From Wenjunlia tyrosinilytica (lineage in GTDB: Bacteria > Actinomycetota > Actinomycetes > Streptomycetales > Streptomycetaceae), in contig NZ_BMMS01000018.1 in NCBI RefSeq assembly GCF_014646055.1, positions 1 to 64,000 on the forward strand: a stretch of 64,000 nucleotides of DNA. The letters are read 5' to 3'. A program made the translations under genes and the position numbers. This document shows positions 18,987 to 29,428 of the stretch, one piece after another (the stretch's first letter is position 1; each line of letters opens with the position of its first letter). Under the pieces are notes generated by a model. It saw nothing but the letters and a program-made list of their open reading frames with translations. It made no database searches and was not told where the DNA came from.

Positions 18987-20468
18987 ATGAACGCTTCGCC
19001 GCCGCAGCCCCGTTCCGTCCCGGACCCCAGGCACGTGGTCGTCGTCGGAGGAGGCATCTCCGGCCTCGCGGCGGCATGGTTCCTCCTGAGCGACGGCAGA
19101 GCGACGGACGGCGCGGGGACGCGGGTCACGGTGTTCGAGGCCTCGGACCGGCTCGGCGGCAAGCTGCACGCCGACGAGATCGCCGGGGTACCGGTCGACC
19201 TGGGCGCCGAGTCGATGCTGGCCCGCCGCCCCGAGGCGGTGGAGCTGGCCCGTGCCGTCGGCCTCGCCGAGGACCTGGAACCGCCTGCCACCGCCAGTGC
19301 CCGCCTGTGGACCCGTGGCGCCCTGCGGCCGATGCCCAGGGGCCATGTGATGGGGGTGCCCGGCGACCTCGCCCCGCTCGCCGCGGCAGGGGTGCTCTCC
19401 CCGCAGGGTCTGGCCCGTATCCCGCTGGACCATCTCCTGCCGCGCACCCCGGTGGCGGACGATGTGTCCGTCGGCGACTTCGTGGCCGCCCGGCTCGGCC
19501 GCGAGGTCGTGGACCGGCTCGTCGAGCCGCTGCTCGGCGGGGTCTACGCGGGCGACTCCTACCGCCTCTCGCTGAAGGCCGCGGTGCCGCAGCTGTTCGA
19601 CGCCGCCCGCCGGGACCGCTCCCTGATCGAGGGTGTCCGAAGGATCCAGCGCCGGGCGCCCCGTGAGCCGGGGCCGGTCTTCATGGGCATCCGCGGAGGC
19701 GTCGGCAGGCTCCCGCTCGCCGTCGCCGATGCCTGCCGTCAGGCCGGTGCCCGGCTGGAGACGGGCACCGCCGTGCGCGAGCTCAAACGGTCCGCGAGTG
19801 GATGGCGGCTCGTCGTCGAGGGCCCGGACGGGATGCGCGCGGTCGGCGCCGACGCGGTGGTCGTCTCCTCGCCCGCCCCCGTCGCCGCCGGACTGCTCCG
19901 TGCCGAGGCACCGCAGGCGGCAGCCGAGCTCTCGGCGGTCGAGTACGCGGGCATGGCCCTGGTCACCATGGCGTTCCGCCGCCGTGACGTGGCGGGGCTG
20001 CCCGACAGCAGCGGCTTCCTCGTCCCGCCGGTGGACGGGCACACGATCAAGGCGTCCACGTTCTCCTCCCGCAAGTGGGGCTGGATCGACGCCGCCGACC
20101 AGGACACCTTCGTCCTGCGCACCTCCATCGGCCGCTACGGCGAGGAGGCGGACCTCGCCTGGGACGACACCGACCTGGTGCGGCTCTCGCGCGAGGACCT
20201 GAACGCGGCGGCAGGGCTCACCGCCGCCCCCGTCGCGGCCCGGGTCACCCGGTGGGGCAATGGGCTGCCGCAGTACCCCGTCGGCCATCTTGACCGGGTG
20301 GCTCGGATCAGGACCGACGTGGGCAAACTCCCGGGTCTGGCCGTGTGCGGGGCGGTGTACGACGGCGTGGGCATCCCGGCGTGCGTGGCCGGCGCGCGCC
20401 GGGCCGTGGACCGGCTGCTGGAAGAGGGGACCCCTGGTCCGGGCCGCACCGGGGCCGGGGGAGAATGA
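18987..20468 (+). CDS. cgoX: Coproporphyrinogen III oxidase (HemY type, coproporphyrin-forming)
   Basis: A 493-residue FAD enzyme of the HemY/HemG2 group. In Gram-positive bacteria this family oxidises coproporphyrinogen III to coproporphyrin III (CgoX) rather than acting mainly as protoporphyrinogen oxidase. The dinucleotide motif [15 protein letters not shown] starts at about residue 15; [11 protein letters not shown] follows, and the C-terminal [23 protein letters not shown]-like region ([17 protein letters not shown]) closes the FAD site. The ATG at 18987 has GGGGGC directly before it and GAGAGT six bases upstream. hemQ starts 4 nt after its stop, so the two form an operon. Confidence 0.94.
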
Positions 20469-20472
20469 GCAC

Positions 20473-21216
20473 ATGACCGAGAGCACTGCCGCCGCTGCCG
20501 CGGAAGACGCCCAGGACGCCCCGGACGCCCCGAAGAAGAAGGCCCGCGATCTGAACCAGGTCATCCGGTACACCATGTGGTCGGTGTTCCGGCTGCGGGA
20601 CGTGCTGCCGGAGGACCGCGTGGGATACGCCTCCGAGGTGGAGGAGCTGTTCGAGCAGCTCGCCGCCAAGGACGTCACCGTGCGCGGCACCTACGACGTC
20701 TCCGGGCTGCGCGCGGACGCCGACGTCATGATCTGGTGGCACGCGGAGACCGCGGACGCCCTCCAGGACGCCTACAACCGCTTCCGCCGCACTCGGCTGG
20801 GCCGCGCCCTCGACCCGGTGTGGTCGAACATGGCGCTGCACCGCCCGGCCGAGTTCAACAAGAGCCACATCCCGGCGTTCCTCGCCGACGAGACGCCCCG
20901 CGAGTGGGTCAGCGTCTACCCGTTCGTGCGCTCCTACGAGTGGTACCTGCTGCCCGACGAGGACCGGCGGCGCATGCTCGCCGACCACGGGAGGATGGCG
21001 CGGGGCTACCCGGACGTGCGGGCCAACACGGTGGCGTCGTTCTCCCTCGGCGACTACGAGTGGATGCTGGCCTTCGAGGCCGACGAACTGCACCGCATCG
21101 TCGACCTCATGCGCCACCTGCGCGGGTCCGAGGCGCGGCGGCACGTCCGCGAGGAGGTGCCGTTCTACACCGGGCGGCGCAAGGCCGTCGCCGATCTGGT
21201 GGCCGGGCTGGCCTGA
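20473..21216 (+). CDS. hemQ: Coproheme decarboxylase (HemQ/ChdC, chlorite-dismutase fold)
   Basis: A 247-residue protein of the chlorite-dismutase superfamily that converts coproheme to haem b with peroxide, the last step of the coproporphyrin route. Seen are [11 protein letters not shown], the [13 protein letters not shown] segment with the catalytic-type Tyr of actinobacterial HemQ, the MLADHG His, and [15 protein letters not shown]. The N-terminus (about 25 residues) is Ala/Asp-rich and probably disordered. The ATG at 20473 lies 4 nt after cgoX, with GGGGGAGA upstream, so translation is coupled. With hemE it shows that this organism makes haem by the coproporphyrin and not the protoporphyrin branch. 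Confidence 0.94.
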
Positions 21217-21309: not shown

Positions 21310-23217
21310 CTACCGCCCGGTGCCGGAAGCGAGGGGGACGCCGTGCGAGGGGCAGCCCTCCGAGGCCGGACCGGCGTCGCCGTGCAGCAGGTAGTCGACC
21401 ACCCGGTGGTTGACGCAGGGGTTGGGCAGATCGGTGACGCCGTGCGAACCGGAGTCCCGCTCCGTCACCAGCACCGAACCGGACAGCCTGCGCCGCAGTT
21501 CCACCGCGCCCGCGTACGGCGTGGCCGCGTCGCGTTCGGCCGCCACGATCATCACCGGCGCCAGACGTCCCCGTGTCCCGGCGCCGACATCCACCGGCCG
21601 CCCCTTGGGGCCCTTCCAGAACGCGCACGGCAGATTCATCCAGGTGTTGTCCCACGTCTCGAACGGGGCCCGACGGGCGACCCTGGTGCTGTCGCGGTCC
21701 CAGACCTTCCAGTCGCGGGGCCACGGAGCGTCGGCGCACTGGATCGCCGTGTAGACGGCAGAGCCGTTCTCGTCGTCGGCTGCCTGCGCGGGGTCCTTGG
21801 CGGCGAGAGCGACCAACCGCTCGGGGTTGCCGCGCACGTACTGGGAGAGGGCCGAGGCGCTGTCCGCCCAGACCATGTCGTAGTAGCCGGTGAGCAGGTA
21901 GGCGGCCTGAAGTTCGCCCGCGCCGACCTTCCCGCCCGCCGGGCGCGCGATGAGCTCCTTGCGGACCTTGTCGTAGGAGCGCTGGACCGCGGCGGCGGTG
22001 CGGCCGAGGTGGTAGACGGAGTCATGCCGGGCCACCCAGGTGCGGAAGTCGCGCCAGCGGGTCTCGAAGGCGACGTTCTGGTCCATGTTGTTGCGGTACC
22101 AGATGTGGTCCGGCGCCGGATTGACGGCGCTGTCCAGCACCATCCGGCGGACGTCGCCCGGGAAGAAGGTGGCGTAGACCCCGCCGATGTAGGTGCCGTA
22201 GGAGGCGCCCAGGAAGTTCAGCCGGTCGTCGTGGAGCGCCGCCTTGAGGACATGGAGGTCACGGGCGACATTGGCCGTCGTCATATGGGGCAGCAGCTTC
22301 GCCGAGCGGCGCCGGCAGCCTTCGGCGTACGCCTTGGCCTTGGCGACGCGGCGGCTCTTGTCCGCCGCCGACGTCGGATCCGGGTCGGGGGAGGGGCCCT
22401 TGGCAAGCGTCTTCGGGTCCTCGCAGGAGACGCGTGTGGACTGGCCGACGCCCCGAGGGTCGAAGCCCACGAAGTCGTACGCCTTCGCCACCCGCGTCCA
22501 GTTGGGGCTCTTGCGGGTGAGGGCGAGCGGGAAGGACAGGCCGGAGCCTCCGGGGCCGCCGGGGTTGTACAGCAGTGAGCCCTGGCGCTGCTCGCGTGTG
22601 CCCGTCGCCTTGGCCCGGCTGACCATCAGGCTGATCCGCGCGCCATGCGGCCGGGAGTAGTCCAGTGGCACCTCGACCCGTCCGCACCTGATCGGGGCGG
22701 GCAGGCGGGCGGCCTTGGGACATGCGGAGAAATGGACCCCGGCCGCGTAGGCCTCGCCAGCGGCCGTCTCGGCTCCCGCCTCCCGCACCTCACCGCTTAG
22801 CGGCAGCGCTCCGACTCCTGGCAGGCCCCCGCCTCCTCGAAGTGCGGCCTCTCGCTGAAGCCCACCGTCGTGCAGAAGGCCGCCGCCTCCTTGAAGGGCC
22901 GGGTCCTGGCGCAGGGCACCGTCCTGGAGAAGGCCGTCCAGCATCGGGCCGCCGCCCCGGAGAAGGCGGTCCTGAAGCACACCGCCGCCCCGGAGGCCGT
23001 CGTCCCAGCCGGCACCGGTGACCTGCCCCGACCCGACGTGCCCCGACCCGACGTGCCCCGAGGTGCCCTCTCCGGAGGCGCCTTGTCCGGAGCCGGCCTG
23101 TCCGGAGCCGCCCTGTCCCGACTCGTCCCGCACCGGATGCGGACGGTCGGCGGCCGCATCCGCCGGGGCCACCGCGAGCACTGCCGCCACGATGGCCGCG
23201 CTCATGCCGAAGCGCAT
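21310..23217 (-). CDS. Secreted alpha/beta hydrolase (tripeptidyl-aminopeptidase-like) with abnormal N-terminal insert
   Basis: The catalytic part (about residues 150-635) belongs to the secreted alpha/beta hydrolase family of Streptomyces tripeptidyl aminopeptidases: LLYNPGGPGGSG (oxyanion region), GFDPRGVGQST, LNFLGASYGTYIGG with the nucleophile Ser, MVLDSAVNP, an acid in APVMIVAAERDAATPY and the His in DSGSHGVTD. A signal peptide begins at MRFGMSAAIVAAVLAVAPADA. Between signal and enzyme lie about 120 Gly-rich residues, of which residues roughly 70-140 show poor codon bias in this frame, while another minus-strand frame (ending at 22797) has near-perfect GC third positions and a Cys-rich product. 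Two compensating indels, or an overlapping small ORF, would explain this. The start at 23217 follows GAGAG; it is not certain. Confidence 0.8.
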   Translation of the reverse strand: MRFGMSAAIVAAVLAVAPADAAADRPHPVRDESGQGGSGQAGSGQGASGEGTSGHVGSGHVGSGQVTGAGWDDGLRGGGVLQDRLLRGGGPMLDGLLQDGALRQDPALQGGGGLLHDGGLQREAALRGGGGLPGVGALPLSGEVREAGAETAAGEAYAAGVHFSACPKAARLPAPIRCGRVEVPLDYSRPHGARISLMVSRAKATGTREQRQGSLLYNPGGPGGSGLSFPLALTRKSPNWTRVAKAYDFVGFDPRGVGQSTRVSCEDPKTLAKGPSPDPDPTSAADKSRRVAKAKAYAEGCRRRSAKLLPHMTTANVARDLHVLKAALHDDRLNFLGASYGTYIGGVYATFFPGDVRRMVLDSAVNPAPDHIWYRNNMDQNVAFETRWRDFRTWVARHDSVYHLGRTAAAVQRSYDKVRKELIARPAGGKVGAGELQAAYLLTGYYDMVWADSASALSQYVRGNPERLVALAAKDPAQAADDENGSAVYTAIQCADAPWPRDWKVWDRDSTRVARRAPFETWDNTWMNLPCAFWKGPKGRPVDVGAGTRGRLAPVMIVAAERDAATPYAGAVELRRRLSGSVLVTERDSGSHGVTDLPNPCVNHRVVDYLLHGDAGPASEGCPSHGVPLASGTGR

Positions 23218-23411
23218 CACTGCTCTCAAGGAAGTTCCCCTCTCCAGGGCCGCCCCGGGCCTGCGCGGCACCGGATCATGACAGCGATCCTTCGGAAGGT
23301 CTTTCCTTATGTAAAGCACCGTTTGTCCGGTGTCGGGATCAAGTCGCCGCCATTCAGGGGGAGTTGGGCCCAGGATGGTCATCCGATCGGATGCGCCCTT
23401 TCCGTGGGCGT

Positions 23412-24203
23412 TCACCCGTTGGAGGCGACTCGCCTCCCACCGCGCAAGGCGGTGCGCAGGAGCGGATCGGGCACCGCGGCGGGACCGCACACGGCGACCG
23501 CGGCCAGCACCTCACCATCGGCCGACTCCTCACCGCCCGTGCCCCGATCGGGTATTCGGAATCTCCGCAGGTAGTCCTGGCCGGCGGGCGAGGCCCACCG
23601 GGTGCAGGGGCCGATCTCGACATGGGCGATGGCAAGGCTCCCCAGGGTGATCAGCAGGGGCAGTGCGAACCAGCCGACCAGCGACCCGTCCGCACCCCGT
23701 GGATGCAGGACCGCGCCCATCACGAACGTGACGACGATCACGACCGAGGCCGCCCGCACCACGCGCACGGAGGAGTCAACGGCCAGGCGGGCGGCGGCCG
23801 GTACGGCGAGGCCGGCCTCGGTGAGCCGGTCGGCGAGCGAGCGCACGGCCTCGCCCTCGACGAAGGCGGCGCGCACGGCCGACACCGGTGACTGTCCCCC
23901 GGCCCCCACCGCCGATATCAGCGACCGCTCGATCTCGTCGCGCCCGTGCGGATCCACAACGGTGGCGTATCCGGTGTGCGCCAGCAGGATCCGCTGGTCA
24001 CACGAGAGCCGGACCAGGGCGAGGTCGGTGACCCGCCGGGGACCACCGAAGAGGTAGGCCGCTTCGTACAGGCCCGGCGCTCCCCGCCGCTCCTCCCGCT
24101 CGGCGGGCTCCCGCGTCCGCGCGGCGGTGATCGCCGCACGGCACAGCCGCCCGCACGAGCCGATGGCCGCGATCCAGGCGACCAGGAGGAACAGGACCCA
24201 CAT
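23412..24203 (-). CDS. TIGR04222-type membrane protein without Cys-rich tail
   Basis: A 263-residue protein with the same plan as the gene before it: an N-terminal membrane segment (WVLFLLVAWIAAIGS), a soluble part with AAYLFGGPRRVTDLALVRL, where its relative has AAFLTGGPRRVAETVLAGM, and two adjacent hydrophobic segments (SVVIVVTFVMGAVL and LVGWFALPLLITLGSLAIA). It ends in GGRRVASNG, without a Gly-Ser-Cys tail. Function is unknown. It is the last gene of the MNIO operon, 94 nt after the preceding gene. The ATG at 24203 has no strong ribosome binding site. Confidence 0.75.
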   Translation of the reverse strand: MWVLFLLVAWIAAIGSCGRLCRAAITAARTREPAEREERRGAPGLYEAAYLFGGPRRVTDLALVRLSCDQRILLAHTGYATVVDPHGRDEIERSLISAVGAGGQSPVSAVRAAFVEGEAVRSLADRLTEAGLAVPAAARLAVDSSVRVVRAASVVIVVTFVMGAVLHPRGADGSLVGWFALPLLITLGSLAIAHVEIGPCTRWASPAGQDYLRRFRIPDRGTGGEESADGEVLAAVAVCGPAAVPDPLLRTALRGGRRVASNG

Positions 24204-24297
24204 GGGCCCGTTCTACCTGACGCCACCGACAATTCGCTCACCATTTCGATCGCGATTCGGTCCCAGCTCGCTGTCCGCTCCGGGCCGGCATCCGAGC

Positions 24298-24440
24298 TCA
24301 GCCGCCGCAGCTGGACCCGCCCCCGGAGCTGGACCCGCCCCCGCAGCTGGACCCGCCCCCGCAGCTCGACCCACCGCCGCAGCTGGACCCGCCCCCGCAC
24401 GACGAACCACCCCCGCAGCTCGACCCGCCGCCCCCGCCCC
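24298..24440 (-). repeat. 18-bp tandem repeat coding for a GGGSSC tail
   Basis: Copies of an 18-bp unit encode GGGSSC; one copy encodes GGGSSS. The repeats occupy the 3' end of the TIGR04222 gene and keep its frame. Confidence 0.9.
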
Positions 24441-25326
24441 CGCACGACGAACCACCGCAGCCGGAGGCGCCACCGCCGTCCGACGCACCGCACCACGAGG
24501 CGGTGCCGCAGGAGGTCCCGCCCGACGACACGACGGTATGGGCCGAGGCCATCGAGGGGCGCCACGCCATCAGATCGCGCAGAACCGGGTCCCACAGTGC
24601 CGCGGTGCCGACGATCGCCACCGTGCTCAGCATCGCCACATCCGTGGTGGCCGCTCCGGGGACCGTCCAGGGGTTCGCCCGGACCAACTCGTCCCGTTGC
24701 TGTCTGCCCCGGCGGGTCAACCGCCCCGGACGCGGCCCGAAGACCGTGATGACGACCAGGCTCCCCACGAAGAACGGCAGCAGCCATACGATCGGCGGCG
24801 GCCCCGAGGGGAAGCGATCGCTCTGGCCCACCCAGACGATCGTGGCGGCGACCAGGGCCCCGAACGACAGCACCAGGGCGACGACCACCCGGTTCCTGGC
24901 CCGGCGCCACCTGGTGTGGATCGCCGGCGCCAGCAGGAGACCGTTCGCCGCCAGCCCGTCGCCGACCTGCTGGATCGCGGGGTGGCGCATCATCTCCAGG
25001 CGCAGCGGGGCCAGTTCACGCTGCCTGGCCGGGCCGCAGGAGTCGATCAGCGCGGTCTCCAGGGGCCGCCGAGGGTGCGGATCGGTCACGGTGACGAGCC
25101 CGCTGCTGGAGACCACCACCCTGCCGTCGTAGTGCATTCCGGCGAGCACGGTCTCGGCCACGCGCCGCGGCCCTCCGGTCAGGAAGGCGGCGTCGAGCAC
25201 CGACACCGGGTGCGGGACACGCGGGGCACGGTCCTCCAGCGACCGGGCCCTGCTCCAGGCCACGACGAGGTTCGCCCACGAGGCGAGCGTGAGCAGGCAG
25301 GCGATGAGGACGAGAACGGTCGACAT
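24298..25326 (-). CDS. TIGR04222-type membrane protein with C-terminal Gly-Ser-Cys repeat tail; candidate MNIO substrate
   Basis: A 342-residue protein. Residues 1-25 form a membrane segment, 40-150 a soluble domain with AAFLTGGPRRVAETVLAGM, then two membrane segments (VVVALVLSFGALVAATIVWV, VWLLPFFVGSLVVITVFG), and a second soluble part ending at about 265. The last roughly 77 residues are Gly, Ser and Cys with ten Cys, six of them in regular GGGSSC repeats and one repeat with Ser in place of Cys. TIGR04222 proteins are known to end in such low-complexity tails. With a DUF692 enzyme two genes upstream, the tail is a plausible substrate for Cys modification (inference). The ATG at 25326 lies 9 nt after the preceding stop with GGGGGCC as ribosome binding site. 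Confidence 0.85.
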   Translation of the reverse strand: MSTVLVLIACLLTLASWANLVVAWSRARSLEDRAPRVPHPVSVLDAAFLTGGPRRVAETVLAGMHYDGRVVVSSSGLVTVTDPHPRRPLETALIDSCGPARQRELAPLRLEMMRHPAIQQVGDGLAANGLLLAPAIHTRWRRARNRVVVALVLSFGALVAATIVWVGQSDRFPSGPPPIVWLLPFFVGSLVVITVFGPRPGRLTRRGRQQRDELVRANPWTVPGAATTDVAMLSTVAIVGTAALWDPVLRDLMAWRPSMASAHTVVSSGGTSCGTASWCGASDGGGASGCGGSSCGGGGGGSSCGGGSSCGGGSSCGGGSSCGGGSSCGGGSSSGGGSSCGG

Positions 25327-25335
25327 GGCGGCCCC

Positions 25336-25872
25336 CTAGCCCAGCACCGAGGCACGGGCCCTGGCGGCGGCGGCCAGTCGGCGCAGCCGTCCCCGCGGAC
25401 GCGGGGCGGGACCGGTGCGCTCGCGCACCCACGCGGTCAGCTCACACCGCTGTTGCCGGGTCAGATCACCCGCGGGGTCCCCGCTCGACTCCGCGGCGCG
25501 CAGCCGTGCCCGCGCGAACGAGAGGGCGTCCCGCCGCGCCCCACCGGCCGACGGATTGACCTGGGCGTAGCGGATGAACGAGGGCCGGAAGCCGTCGCCG
25601 AGGATCCGGGGCAGCTCGGGGGCGACCTTGGCGGTCACCGATGCCCGTTTGTCGGCGAGCGCCCGGGTCTGGAGCCGTACTCGCGCGGGGTCGAAGCCCT
25701 GGGGCACCGGAGTACCCGCGACGAGTGCCGACAGCAGGGCCGCCTGCGCCAGCGCGAGCCGCTGCCTGGCCGCGTCGGTCCCGGAGGCGGCGGCGCTGGA
25801 GTGGGCCGAGCCGGCGGCGGGTGCCGTGTTGGCGGTGGGAGCACCGGCCGGGGCGGATGCGGAAACGTTCAT
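25336..25872 (-). CDS. Small protein of the MNIO operon, possible DUF2063/BufC-like partner
   Basis: A 178-residue protein with an Ala/Ser-rich first 35 residues and then a helical part: [38 protein letters not shown], and [21 protein letters not shown]. The pattern of a leading amphipathic helix, an xPxGxxxxR-x-Q/Y turn, and LPRILGDGF resembles the DUF2063 (HvfC/BufC) proteins that bind the precursor for DUF692 enzymes, but the identity is weak and must be tested by profile search. The ATG at 25872 lies 13 nt after the DUF692 stop, with GGGGGA overlapping that stop. No signal peptide or membrane segment is visible. Confidence 0.65.
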
Positions 25873-25885
25873 GGCGGCATTCCCC

Positions 25886-26722
25886 CTACGCTGCCTGAGG
25901 TGTGCGCGTGAGCACGCGGCGGATGGTGTCCAGCTCGGCGGCAAGCTCCGCCGGGGGCGGGAAGTTGTCGTCCCGCTCCAGCAGCACCCCGGGCGGGACG
26001 GCTTTCGAGCACAGCTGCCCGAGGACGTCGAGGACCGGCTCGGTGACCGGATGGGCGTGGGTGTCGTGCCAGACGCCGTCGCGCATCACTCCGCCCGCCA
26101 CATGGACATAGGCGATGGCTTCCACCGGAAGGGCGTCGAGGGCGGCGGCCGGGTCCTCGCCGCGGTTGACGTGGTTGGTGTGCAGGTTGGCCACGTCGAT
26201 CAGCAGGCGCACCCCCGTGCGCTCGACGAGCTCCGCGAGGAACTCGCCCTCGCTGTACTCGTTGTCGGGCCACGAGACGAGTGCCGCGATGTTCTCCAGC
26301 GCGAGCGGCACCGGAAGGCAGTCCTGGGCGATACGGATGTTCTCCGCCAGCACTTCCAGGCTGTCGCGGGTGCGCGGAACGGGCAGGAGGTGGCCCGCCT
26401 CCAGCAGCGGCGAGCCCGTCATCTCCCCGCCCGCCCGGACGAACGCGATGTGCTCGGTGACCAGCGGCGCCCCCAGCGCCTCGACCCGCTCCGCCAGCGC
26501 GGCCAGCCGCTGGGGGGCGGGACGCTCGGCGCCGCCGATGCCTAGGGAGACCCCGTGCGGAACGACGGTGACCCCGCGGTCGAGAAGCCGGCGCAGCGAG
26601 TCCGGGATGTGGCCGGGGCAGATGTTCTCCGCGACGACCTCGACCCAGTCGATGCCCGGCAGCCGGTCGAGCGCCGTGTCGATCTCGGACCGCCAGCCGA
26701 TCCCCATGCCCAGGTGTTCCAT
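25886..26722 (-). CDS. DUF692 / MNIO enzyme (multinuclear non-heme iron oxidative enzyme)
   Basis: A 278-residue TIM-barrel protein of the DUF692 family, now called MNIO, which includes MbnB (methanobactin), TglH, ChrH and BufB; these modify Cys residues of ribosomal peptides with two or three irons. The metal and active-site positions are all present: H56 ([11 protein letters not shown]), E90/H91 (TEHIAF), E143 (ALENIAAL), D176 and N179 ([10 protein letters not shown]), H207 (YVHVAGG), D220 and H222 (WHDTHAHP), and E249 ([10 protein letters not shown]). Length is typical. It heads a four-gene operon with small gaps. The ATG at 26722 has GGAGGGGG upstream. The reaction here is unknown. Confidence 0.93.
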
Positions 26723-26730
26723 CGTTTCCC

Positions 26731-26803
26731 CCTCCGACGCTGTCTCCCAAGCCGCTGTCTTCTACGCCGCTGTCTCCTCCGACGCTGTCCCCTCCGACGC
26801 GCT
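26731..26803. repeat. 15-bp tandem repeats upstream of the MNIO gene
   Basis: About four degenerate copies of a unit like CCGCTGTCTCCTCCG lie between the DUF692 start and the PTH2 gene, just before the ribosome binding site of DUF692. Confidence 0.75.
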
Positions 26804-26855
26804 GTGCGGGGTTGATGGCCCCGGCGGGGGACGGCGAACCCTGGGCAGGCGTGGT

Positions 26856-27569
26856 TCAGAGCATGATTTGAGGTTGCCCGCGCAGCGCGGGCAGGTCGGC
26901 GACCACGGTGCAGGAGCCGGGCGCGATCTCCGTGAACCCGGCGTCACGTACGACCGGCAGACCGCTGTCGGTGAGCCGCCCCCAGCGCTCCGCGGCAGCG
27001 GTACGCACCGCGAGCCGGAAGCCGTCGCCTTCCCACGCGTGGCGCTCGGCGGGGGACAGCCGCCACCACGCGAGCTGGGCGGCATGCCCGACCTGGGCCA
27101 TGGCCTTGCCCGCGCTCATCTCCAGCTCCGGGTTGAGCCACAGGACGGGCCCGCCGGTGTGCGGGGGCGCGACGGGCTCGGGGTCGGCGAGGTCGGTGCC
27201 GGAGACCTGGAGGCGGGCCAGGTCGCGCGGCCAGTCGTCGACGGGAACGGGCGGGAAGACCCGGACCCGGGCCCGCTCACCGTGGACGGTGATCCCGGCA
27301 AGCGCCTCGGCCCGCCGCCACTCCGCGCCGCGCGCCCGGCGCACCACCTTCCTTATCCGGCCGTCGGTCCATGAGCGCAGCGCCTTCGCCCACTCCCCGT
27401 CGCCCTCGACCCGGGGATCGGCGAGGAAGGTGAGCACAGCACGTGCCGAGGTCTCCAAGGCATCGGTCCTGGCCGGGGGTTCGGCCTTCTCGATGTTCAC
27501 GACGAGCGGCAGGACGAACTGGGGCGCCGCGTCGCGCTCGGCAGCGGCGGGATCAACGGGGCTGGTCAC
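26856..27569 (-). CDS. PTH2-like (peptidyl-tRNA hydrolase type II) protein with N-terminal extension
   Basis: A 237-residue protein. The C-terminal half (about residues 140-237) is PTH2-like: NPELEMSAGKAMAQVGHAAQLAW is the family's core helix with conserved Lys, Gln and His, followed by FRLAVRTAAAERW and SCTVVADLP. PTH2 enzymes release peptides from peptidyl-tRNA in archaea and eukaryotes; bacterial members have unknown roles. The N-terminal 140 residues (WTDGRIRKVVRRARGAEW) are an extra domain not found in stand-alone PTH2. The GTG at 27569 is set by CATGCT six bases upstream. It lies upstream of the MNIO operon on the same strand, 133 nt apart. Confidence 0.8.
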   Translation of the reverse strand: MTSPVDPAAAERDAAPQFVLPLVVNIEKAEPPARTDALETSARAVLTFLADPRVEGDGEWAKALRSWTDGRIRKVVRRARGAEWRRAEALAGITVHGERARVRVFPPVPVDDWPRDLARLQVSGTDLADPEPVAPPHTGGPVLWLNPELEMSAGKAMAQVGHAAQLAWWRLSPAERHAWEGDGFRLAVRTAAAERWGRLTDSGLPVVRDAGFTEIAPGSCTVVADLPALRGQPQIML

Positions 27570-29023: not shown

Positions 29024-29428
29024 CTACGCGTCCGGGGCCAGGCGCAGCGAGATCGAGTTGATGCAGTAGCGCTGGTCCGTCGGGGTCGGGTAGCCCTCGC
29101 CCTCGAAGACATGGCCCAGATGTGAGCCGCAGGTGGAGCACCGGACCTCGACGCGGACCATGCCGTGGGAGCGGTCCTCGATCAGCTCGACGGCCTTGGA
29201 GTCCGCCGGGTCGTAGAACGACGGCCAGCCGCAGTGGCTCTCGAACTTCGTGTCGGAGCGGAACAGTTCCGCCCCGCACGCCCGGCAGGAGTACACGCCG
29301 GTGGTCTTCGTGTCGGTGTACTCACCGGTGAACGCCTGCTCGGTGCCCGCCTCGCGCAGCACCCGGAACTCGGATGGAGTCAGCTGCTCGCGCCACTCGT
29401 CCTCGGACTTCTCGACTTCGTAGGCCAT
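29024..29428 (-). CDS. msrB: Peptide-methionine (R)-S-oxide reductase
   Basis: A 134-residue enzyme that reduces methionine-R-sulfoxide in proteins after oxidative damage, with thioredoxin as donor. It has the two zinc CxxC pairs (SCRACG and CSTCG), the substrate loop HCGWPSFY, and the catalytic Cys in RYCINSISL. The ATG at 29428 has no ribosome binding site but TAGGCT six bases upstream, and the TAG of that box is the stop codon of murC. The mRNA is thus probably leaderless and independent of murC, while the LOG gene follows 16 nt later. Confidence 0.96.
   Translation of the reverse strand: MAYEVEKSEDEWREQLTPSEFRVLREAGTEQAFTGEYTDTKTTGVYSCRACGAELFRSDTKFESHCGWPSFYDPADSKAVELIEDRSHGMVRVEVRCSTCGSHLGHVFEGEGYPTPTDQRYCINSISLRLAPDA

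Follow-up and report, generated by a model that had tools for sequence, protein, structure and literature searches.

Introduction

In the methanobactin (MbnBC), 3-thiaglutamate (TglHI) and bufferin systems, an MNIO enzyme and a partner protein oxidise cysteines. TglH works on a Cys that has been added to a scaffold peptide (PMC10880893). Another candidate system was proposed by Antoine et al (2025; PMC12452194), who reported that 40% of the Cys proteins that lack a signal and whose genes precede an MNIO gene belong to TIGR04222 and that these TIGR04222 members carry C-terminal Ser/Gly/Cys tails, subsets of them being probable MNIO substrates. In that survey, at least 10% of the TIGR04222 clusters encode DUF2063-like partners ("PME-type 2"), the order PTH2-MNIO-TIGR04222 is listed as adjamnio-II, and the tail is predicted to lie outside the cytoplasm. 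Here, we analyse an MNIO-partner-TIGR04222 cassette from Wenjunlia tyrosinilytica, located in positions 1-64,000 of NZ_BMMS01000018.1 (GCF_014646055.1); this 64,000-nucleotide stretch is called the window, and the cassette with its two closest neighbours lies at 23412-27569.

The cassette fits the system of Antoine et al, itself published from sequence alone, and the description of the locus as "undescribed" in a first-pass annotation of this DNA has to be given up. What is added here is a near-universal and often fused partner, statistics on tail and MNIO, a contrary topology prediction and the loss of the tail. The reading that we moderately favour, from sequence features and by analogy with the known systems, is that the MNIO and its partner would modify the Cys of a cytosolic TIGR04222 tail in place, at the inner face of the membrane.

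Results

A conserved three-gene cassette

The core of the locus comprises the following features:

25886-26722, minus strand: MNIO (PF05114) enzyme, 278 aa (Pfam E = 1e-78)
25336-25872, minus strand: DUF2063-like partner, 178 aa, predicted all-helical; homologous domain found beside related MNIOs
24298-25326, minus strand: TIGR04222 membrane protein with Cys tail, 342 aa (NCBIfam E = 1.6e-35)
24301-24531, minus strand: C-terminal Cys/Gly/Ser tail, proposed substrate, ten Cys in 77 residues

The MNIO, partner, tailed TIGR04222 and tail-less TIGR04222 genes form a tandem array on the minus strand, in this order, with gaps of 13, 9 and 94 nt, the MNIO gene being two genes upstream of the Cys-tailed gene. 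No further TIGR04222 match and no further MNIO match was found beyond this locus in the 8.49-Mb genome, and the named MNIO sequences closest to the window MNIO are from Streptomyces.

The three-gene cassette is real and conserved. Outside Streptomycetaceae the genes mostly stand as TIGR04222-MNIO-partner. Six loci sampled from other families have unrelated flanks, consisting of housekeeping genes (PEPCK, undecaprenyl synthase, PFK, SelR, UDG and others). That these genes are chance neighbours with no functional link is strongly disfavoured: although the independent-pairs test (see below) has no power on this question, the unit occurs in several actinobacterial families with differing gene order and flanks, and fusion of the enzyme with its partner is repeated.

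By alignment, the MNIO active site is intact. The enzyme scores 264.7 bits against PF05114 (gathering score 25); its best NCBIfam model is BufB, at 181 bits under a cutoff of 310, and the MbnB model matches weakly (E = 1.7e-8, 34 bits, cutoff 325). Mapped from TglH (ligand list from PMC10880893, the two N-terminal His being placed by conservation and the 3bww alignment), the iron ligands are H56, H91, E143, D176, N179, H207, D220, H222 and E249. All nine align; each is present in 98% or more of 147 relatives, among them MNIOs with no tailed protein encoded nearby.

The partner is near-universal and often fused to the enzyme

Profile hidden Markov models built in-house were used to search 200 related loci (designated by L numbers) and the window region, covering 150 MNIOs. 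A homologue of the 178-aa partner lies within 1.5 Kbp of 149 of them, the sole exception (L033) corresponding to a contig end. In 94 of the 150, MNIO and partner form one polypeptide with the partner domain at the C-terminal end: 67 of the 80 named Streptomyces loci, where fusion is the usual state (L004-L083; e.g. L016:5980-7293), 19 other Streptomycetaceae loci and 8 outside this family. Along the MNIO tree, the fused or separate state changes at least ten times. The association of partner and MNIO is thus well supported; no description of the fusion was found in the searched portion of the text of PMC12452194.

Sequence comparison makes homology of the window partner to DUF2063 likely. DUF2063 is the commonest Pfam match of the partner family (13/60 members, best E = 4.5e-5), with a match in just 1 of the 34 members of a more diverse partner set and in 1 of 149 genomes above cut-off in a survey of the phylum. 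The window copy itself has zero matches among Pfam and NCBIfam models. Its AlphaFold model (pLDDT 83.9) is all-helical, with six helices. Foldseek places MbnABC and TglHI chains near the top for this model, but with E > 1, and a search of PDB sequences with the partner profile gave no match. One diverse partner homologue (alignment A3) matches PqqD (E = 1.4e-4), which suggests an RRE-type peptide-binding part.

A disordered Cys/Gly/Ser tail on a TIGR04222 protein

The tailed and tail-less membrane proteins score 122.8 and 128.5 bits, respectively, against the TIGR04222 model (cutoff 43). The last 77 residues of the 342-aa protein contain exactly ten Cys, every one encoded by TGC; the Gly and Ser are written in mixed codons, and the tail is therefore not a plain DNA microsatellite. 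AlphaFold predicts the tail to be disordered (pLDDT 77.3 for the whole protein). Because 109 homologous Cys tails were collected, with a median of 7 Cys (2-12), the arrangement is not due to chance. In these 109 tails a spacing of 6 is the commonest, the Cys lie in SCG, GCG and SCS contexts, and 58 of the 78 Streptomycetaceae tails additionally carry a WC motif. We regard the tail as the best candidate for the substrate. Reading of the DNA and its open reading frames (ORFs), family searches and alignment bear out the earlier observations, namely the four minus-strand ORFs with their gaps, the MNIO with all metal-site residues, the count of ten Cys and the TIGR04222 identity of both membrane proteins.

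Arrangements vary between loci. At L108:5986-10653, one MNIO-partner pair is flanked by three Cys-tailed TIGR04222 genes. Cys are unusually closely packed in the tails of L164 and L165 (genus g241; GCGDCDGCGGCGCGCD), and no MNIO is close by, the MNIOs being elsewhere in these genomes. Foldseek of the TIGR04222 model against the PDB returned nothing meaningful. Frames of roughly 600-700 aa elsewhere match the TIGR04222 model weakly; these and two faint DUF2207_C matches give a hint, at the level of sequence profiles, of kinship between TIGR04222 and DUF2207.

The tail probably faces the cytosol

The tailed protein has three predicted transmembrane (TM) helices, at about aa 2-24, 146-168 and 178-196. 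In 207 profiled proteins, TM1 stands at the very N-terminus and is separated from TM2 by a soluble domain; a short loop connects TM2 with TM3, and a second soluble part leads on to the tail. The AlphaFold model likewise has three helices of TM length, and the hydrophobic helix that follows has just 11 residues. The positive-inside rule links the charge of the flanks to the cytosolic side. Over the 207 proteins, the three predicted inner flanks (behind TM1, ahead of TM2 and behind TM3) sum to a mean net charge of +6.2, against -0.5 for the TM2-TM3 loop, and 201 of the proteins have a larger fraction of Lys plus Arg in these flanks than in this loop. The pattern is common to tailed and untailed proteins, inside and outside Streptomycetaceae. 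With three TM helices, this bias therefore predicts an N-terminus outside and a soluble domain and tail in the cytosol. The tail thus probably faces the cytosol, opposite to the published prediction and to the cell-surface location proposed in the first-pass annotation. A soluble enzyme could therefore reach a cytosolic tail in place, without an export step.

Alternatively, the tail could be modified by the MNIO before translocation and then act as a surface or periplasmic metal chelator like a bufferin (Antoine et al). We judge this unlikely. Their topology prediction and the analogy with exported bufferins speak for it, but an inside tail is indicated by the charge bias in 201 of 207 proteins and by the three TM helices, which start after a very short N-terminus devoid of charge, and the core unit has no visible cleavable signal or tail-release gene.

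Cys tails co-occur with MNIOs and appear to have been lost repeatedly

Co-occurrence was measured on an anchor-free set of 143 TIGR04222 proteins, from loci found through TIGR04222 alone; four MNIO-only loci without TIGR04222 were also fetched and stand outside these counts. MNIO presence was taken from genome-wide match lists, and a tail was defined by at least two [GSA]C[GSA] motifs. The Cys-tailed proteins are in MNIO genomes in 74 of 76 cases, versus 42 of 67 for untailed ones (Fisher 5e-8), and have an MNIO within 3 Kbp in 64/76 versus 28/67 cases (Fisher 1e-7). The first difference is found in Streptomycetaceae (41/41 tailed versus 33/41 untailed, P = 0.005) as well as in other families (33/35 versus 9/26, P = 6e-7). 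The motif definition was adopted after a looser one, based on Cys count and Gly/Ser content, which gave a weaker association (72/79 versus 44/64, Fisher 0.001). In L120, one of the two tailed exceptions, part of an MNIO is encoded where the contig ends. The TIGR04222 relatives of MNIO-less genomes L126-L129 and L138 provide a natural control: their tails, mostly Gly/Asp, have zero Cys.

These counts bear on the possibility that the Cys tail is an unmodified, thiol-rich metal or redox arm and that the MNIO substrate is encoded elsewhere. MNIOs with intact ligands do persist in tail-less loci, even without any TIGR04222 gene (L140, L141), as would be expected in that case; however, a tail in a genome without MNIO was found just twice in 76, and the tails of MNIO-less relatives are Cys-free, which leaves this explanation with a rather low probability.

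Tail-less MNIO loci take several forms: L166, L196 and L201-L203 have the MNIO, the partner and the tail-less paralogue only, and L140-L142 have the MNIO and partner with no TIGR04222. Of 141 scorable MNIO loci, 46 are without tail. Tail state changes nine times on the MNIO tree, and at least five of these changes fall on branches with good support. Nearly all deep branches are tailed, and 33 tail-less loci group in a single Streptomyces clade. The tree fits repeated loss of the tail, a direction that would follow from this branching pattern although the tree is unrooted. As MNIOs remain intact without a local tail, the tail cannot be the sole substrate across the family, and others must exist in places.

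Neighbouring genes

Two neighbours of the cassette were considered in addition:

23412-24203, minus strand: tail-less TIGR04222 paralogue, 263 aa, neighbour and probably not core (NCBIfam E = 3e-37)
26856-27569, minus strand: PTH2-like protein upstream of the MNIO gene, neighbour only (Pfam PTH2 E = 2e-9)

The PTH2 gene is present in Streptomycetaceae loci but absent from all loci retrieved from other families. In four MNIO-less Streptomycetaceae loci (L162, L175, L193 and L197), the PTH2 and tail-less TIGR04222 genes lie on the same strand within about 2 Kbp of each other, and the interval contains neither an MNIO nor a partner or tailed gene. Because both genes occur in MNIO-less genomes, we restrict the core to the MNIO, the partner and the tailed protein. 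The tail-less paralogue, counted in the first-pass annotation as a member of the system, was accordingly rejected as such. Failure of the four genes to co-occur in relatives had been named beforehand as grounds for refutation; three of them do co-occur, and the tail-less TIGR04222 gene drops out. A CxxLC motif in TM1 is frequent in Streptomycetaceae tail-less paralogues, MNIO-less genomes included (window 23412-24203; L006, L045, L175).

In many Streptomyces loci, tail-less ones included, a gene resembling DUF4142 precedes or follows the MNIO (L034:7665-8453, L147:3445-4263). It was named by its appearance, with no Pfam scan behind the name, and encodes a membrane-anchored protein with 0-1 Cys. 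As a simple replacement substrate it was rejected, since some loci carry both this gene and a tail. More generally, it is very improbable that the substrate is a neighbour, either the tail-less TIGR04222 protein with its CxxLC or, in Streptomyces, the DUF4142-like protein. Both genes are present in many tail-less MNIO loci, and some MNIOs modify non-Cys residues (PMC12452194); yet the CxxLC paralogue occurs also without MNIO, and the DUF4142-like protein, besides its scarcity of Cys, is encoded neither in the window region nor in the loci from other families.

Near the cassette, the window also holds hemQ (20467-21195), a TAP-like alpha/beta hydrolase gene (21310-23229) and an ORF resembling msrB by eye (29024-29428). 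A SelR/msrB gene is also directly upstream of the L099 cassette, and the neighbourhood is possibly old.

Discussion

We propose that the MNIO and its DUF2063-like partner, often a single fused protein, would act as one enzyme that oxidatively modifies Cys, in SCG and GCG contexts, in the disordered tail of the adjacent TIGR04222 protein. By analogy with bufferins and methanobactin, the product would probably be a series of heterocycles derived from Cys, similar to thiooxazole or oxazolone-thioamide groups, and the membrane-anchored arm may bind a soft metal such as copper. More tentatively, an enzyme docked at the inner membrane face might modify many tail Cys in place. This would yield a ribosomally made, metallophore-like arm that stays anchored for good, without export or cleavage, as a modified protein and not a released ribosomally synthesized and post-translationally modified peptide.

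Several points weigh against modification of a cytosolic tail in place. Antoine et al predict a periplasmic tail. No local Cys-tailed protein accompanies 54 of the 150 MNIO loci, some of them on short contigs and 46 with sufficient sequence for a verdict, though their MNIOs are intact; no credible other Cys/Gly/Ser-rich ORF was found near these 54 MNIOs. The association statistics ignore shared ancestry, and informative pairs were too scarce for the independent-pairs test. In favour of the proposal, aligned tail positions are kept in close pairs at 94% for Cys, 89% for Ser and 87% for Gly, but the contrast between 94% and 89% is modest evidence because Gly/Ser-rich tails resist unique alignment.

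Compared with described systems, the cassette shares with the TIGR04222-MNIO clusters of Antoine et al the membrane family, the Cys/Gly/Ser tail, the MNIO, the DUF2063-like partner and the adjamnio-II order. Their clusters have the partner in at least 10% of cases, many apparently lacking it, and a periplasmic tail, whereas here nearly every MNIO has the partner, in many cases as a fusion, and the prediction for the tail is cytosolic. With the bufferins (BufA/BufB/BufC), which are copper chelators, it shares BufB as the nearest NCBIfam model, a DUF2063-like partner and a Cys-rich substrate candidate. Unlike in bufferins, the BufB score stays under its cutoff, no DUF2282/Buf2 Sec-signal precursor match was found in the operon genes, and the substrate candidate is a three-TM membrane protein. 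The iron ligands and MNIO sequence are alignable with TglHI, which also requires a partner, but none of the genes examined could be recognised as scaffold-peptide machinery. Methanobactin MbnBC, known as an MNIO and partner that modify Cys and yield a copper ligand, is alike in this pairing and unlike in the weak match to the MbnB model and in that no MbnA-like peptide was seen.

The cassette is common in Streptomyces and present in several further actinobacterial families, and its fused MNIO-partner form lends itself to biochemical work as an enzyme in one polypeptide. The data also raise the question of what maintains the MNIO in the roughly one third of loci that have no tail. The prediction of a cytosolic tail makes the published idea a yes/no question; if the tail is indeed modified in place, MNIO chemistry would reach beyond small exported peptides and include proteins integral to the membrane.

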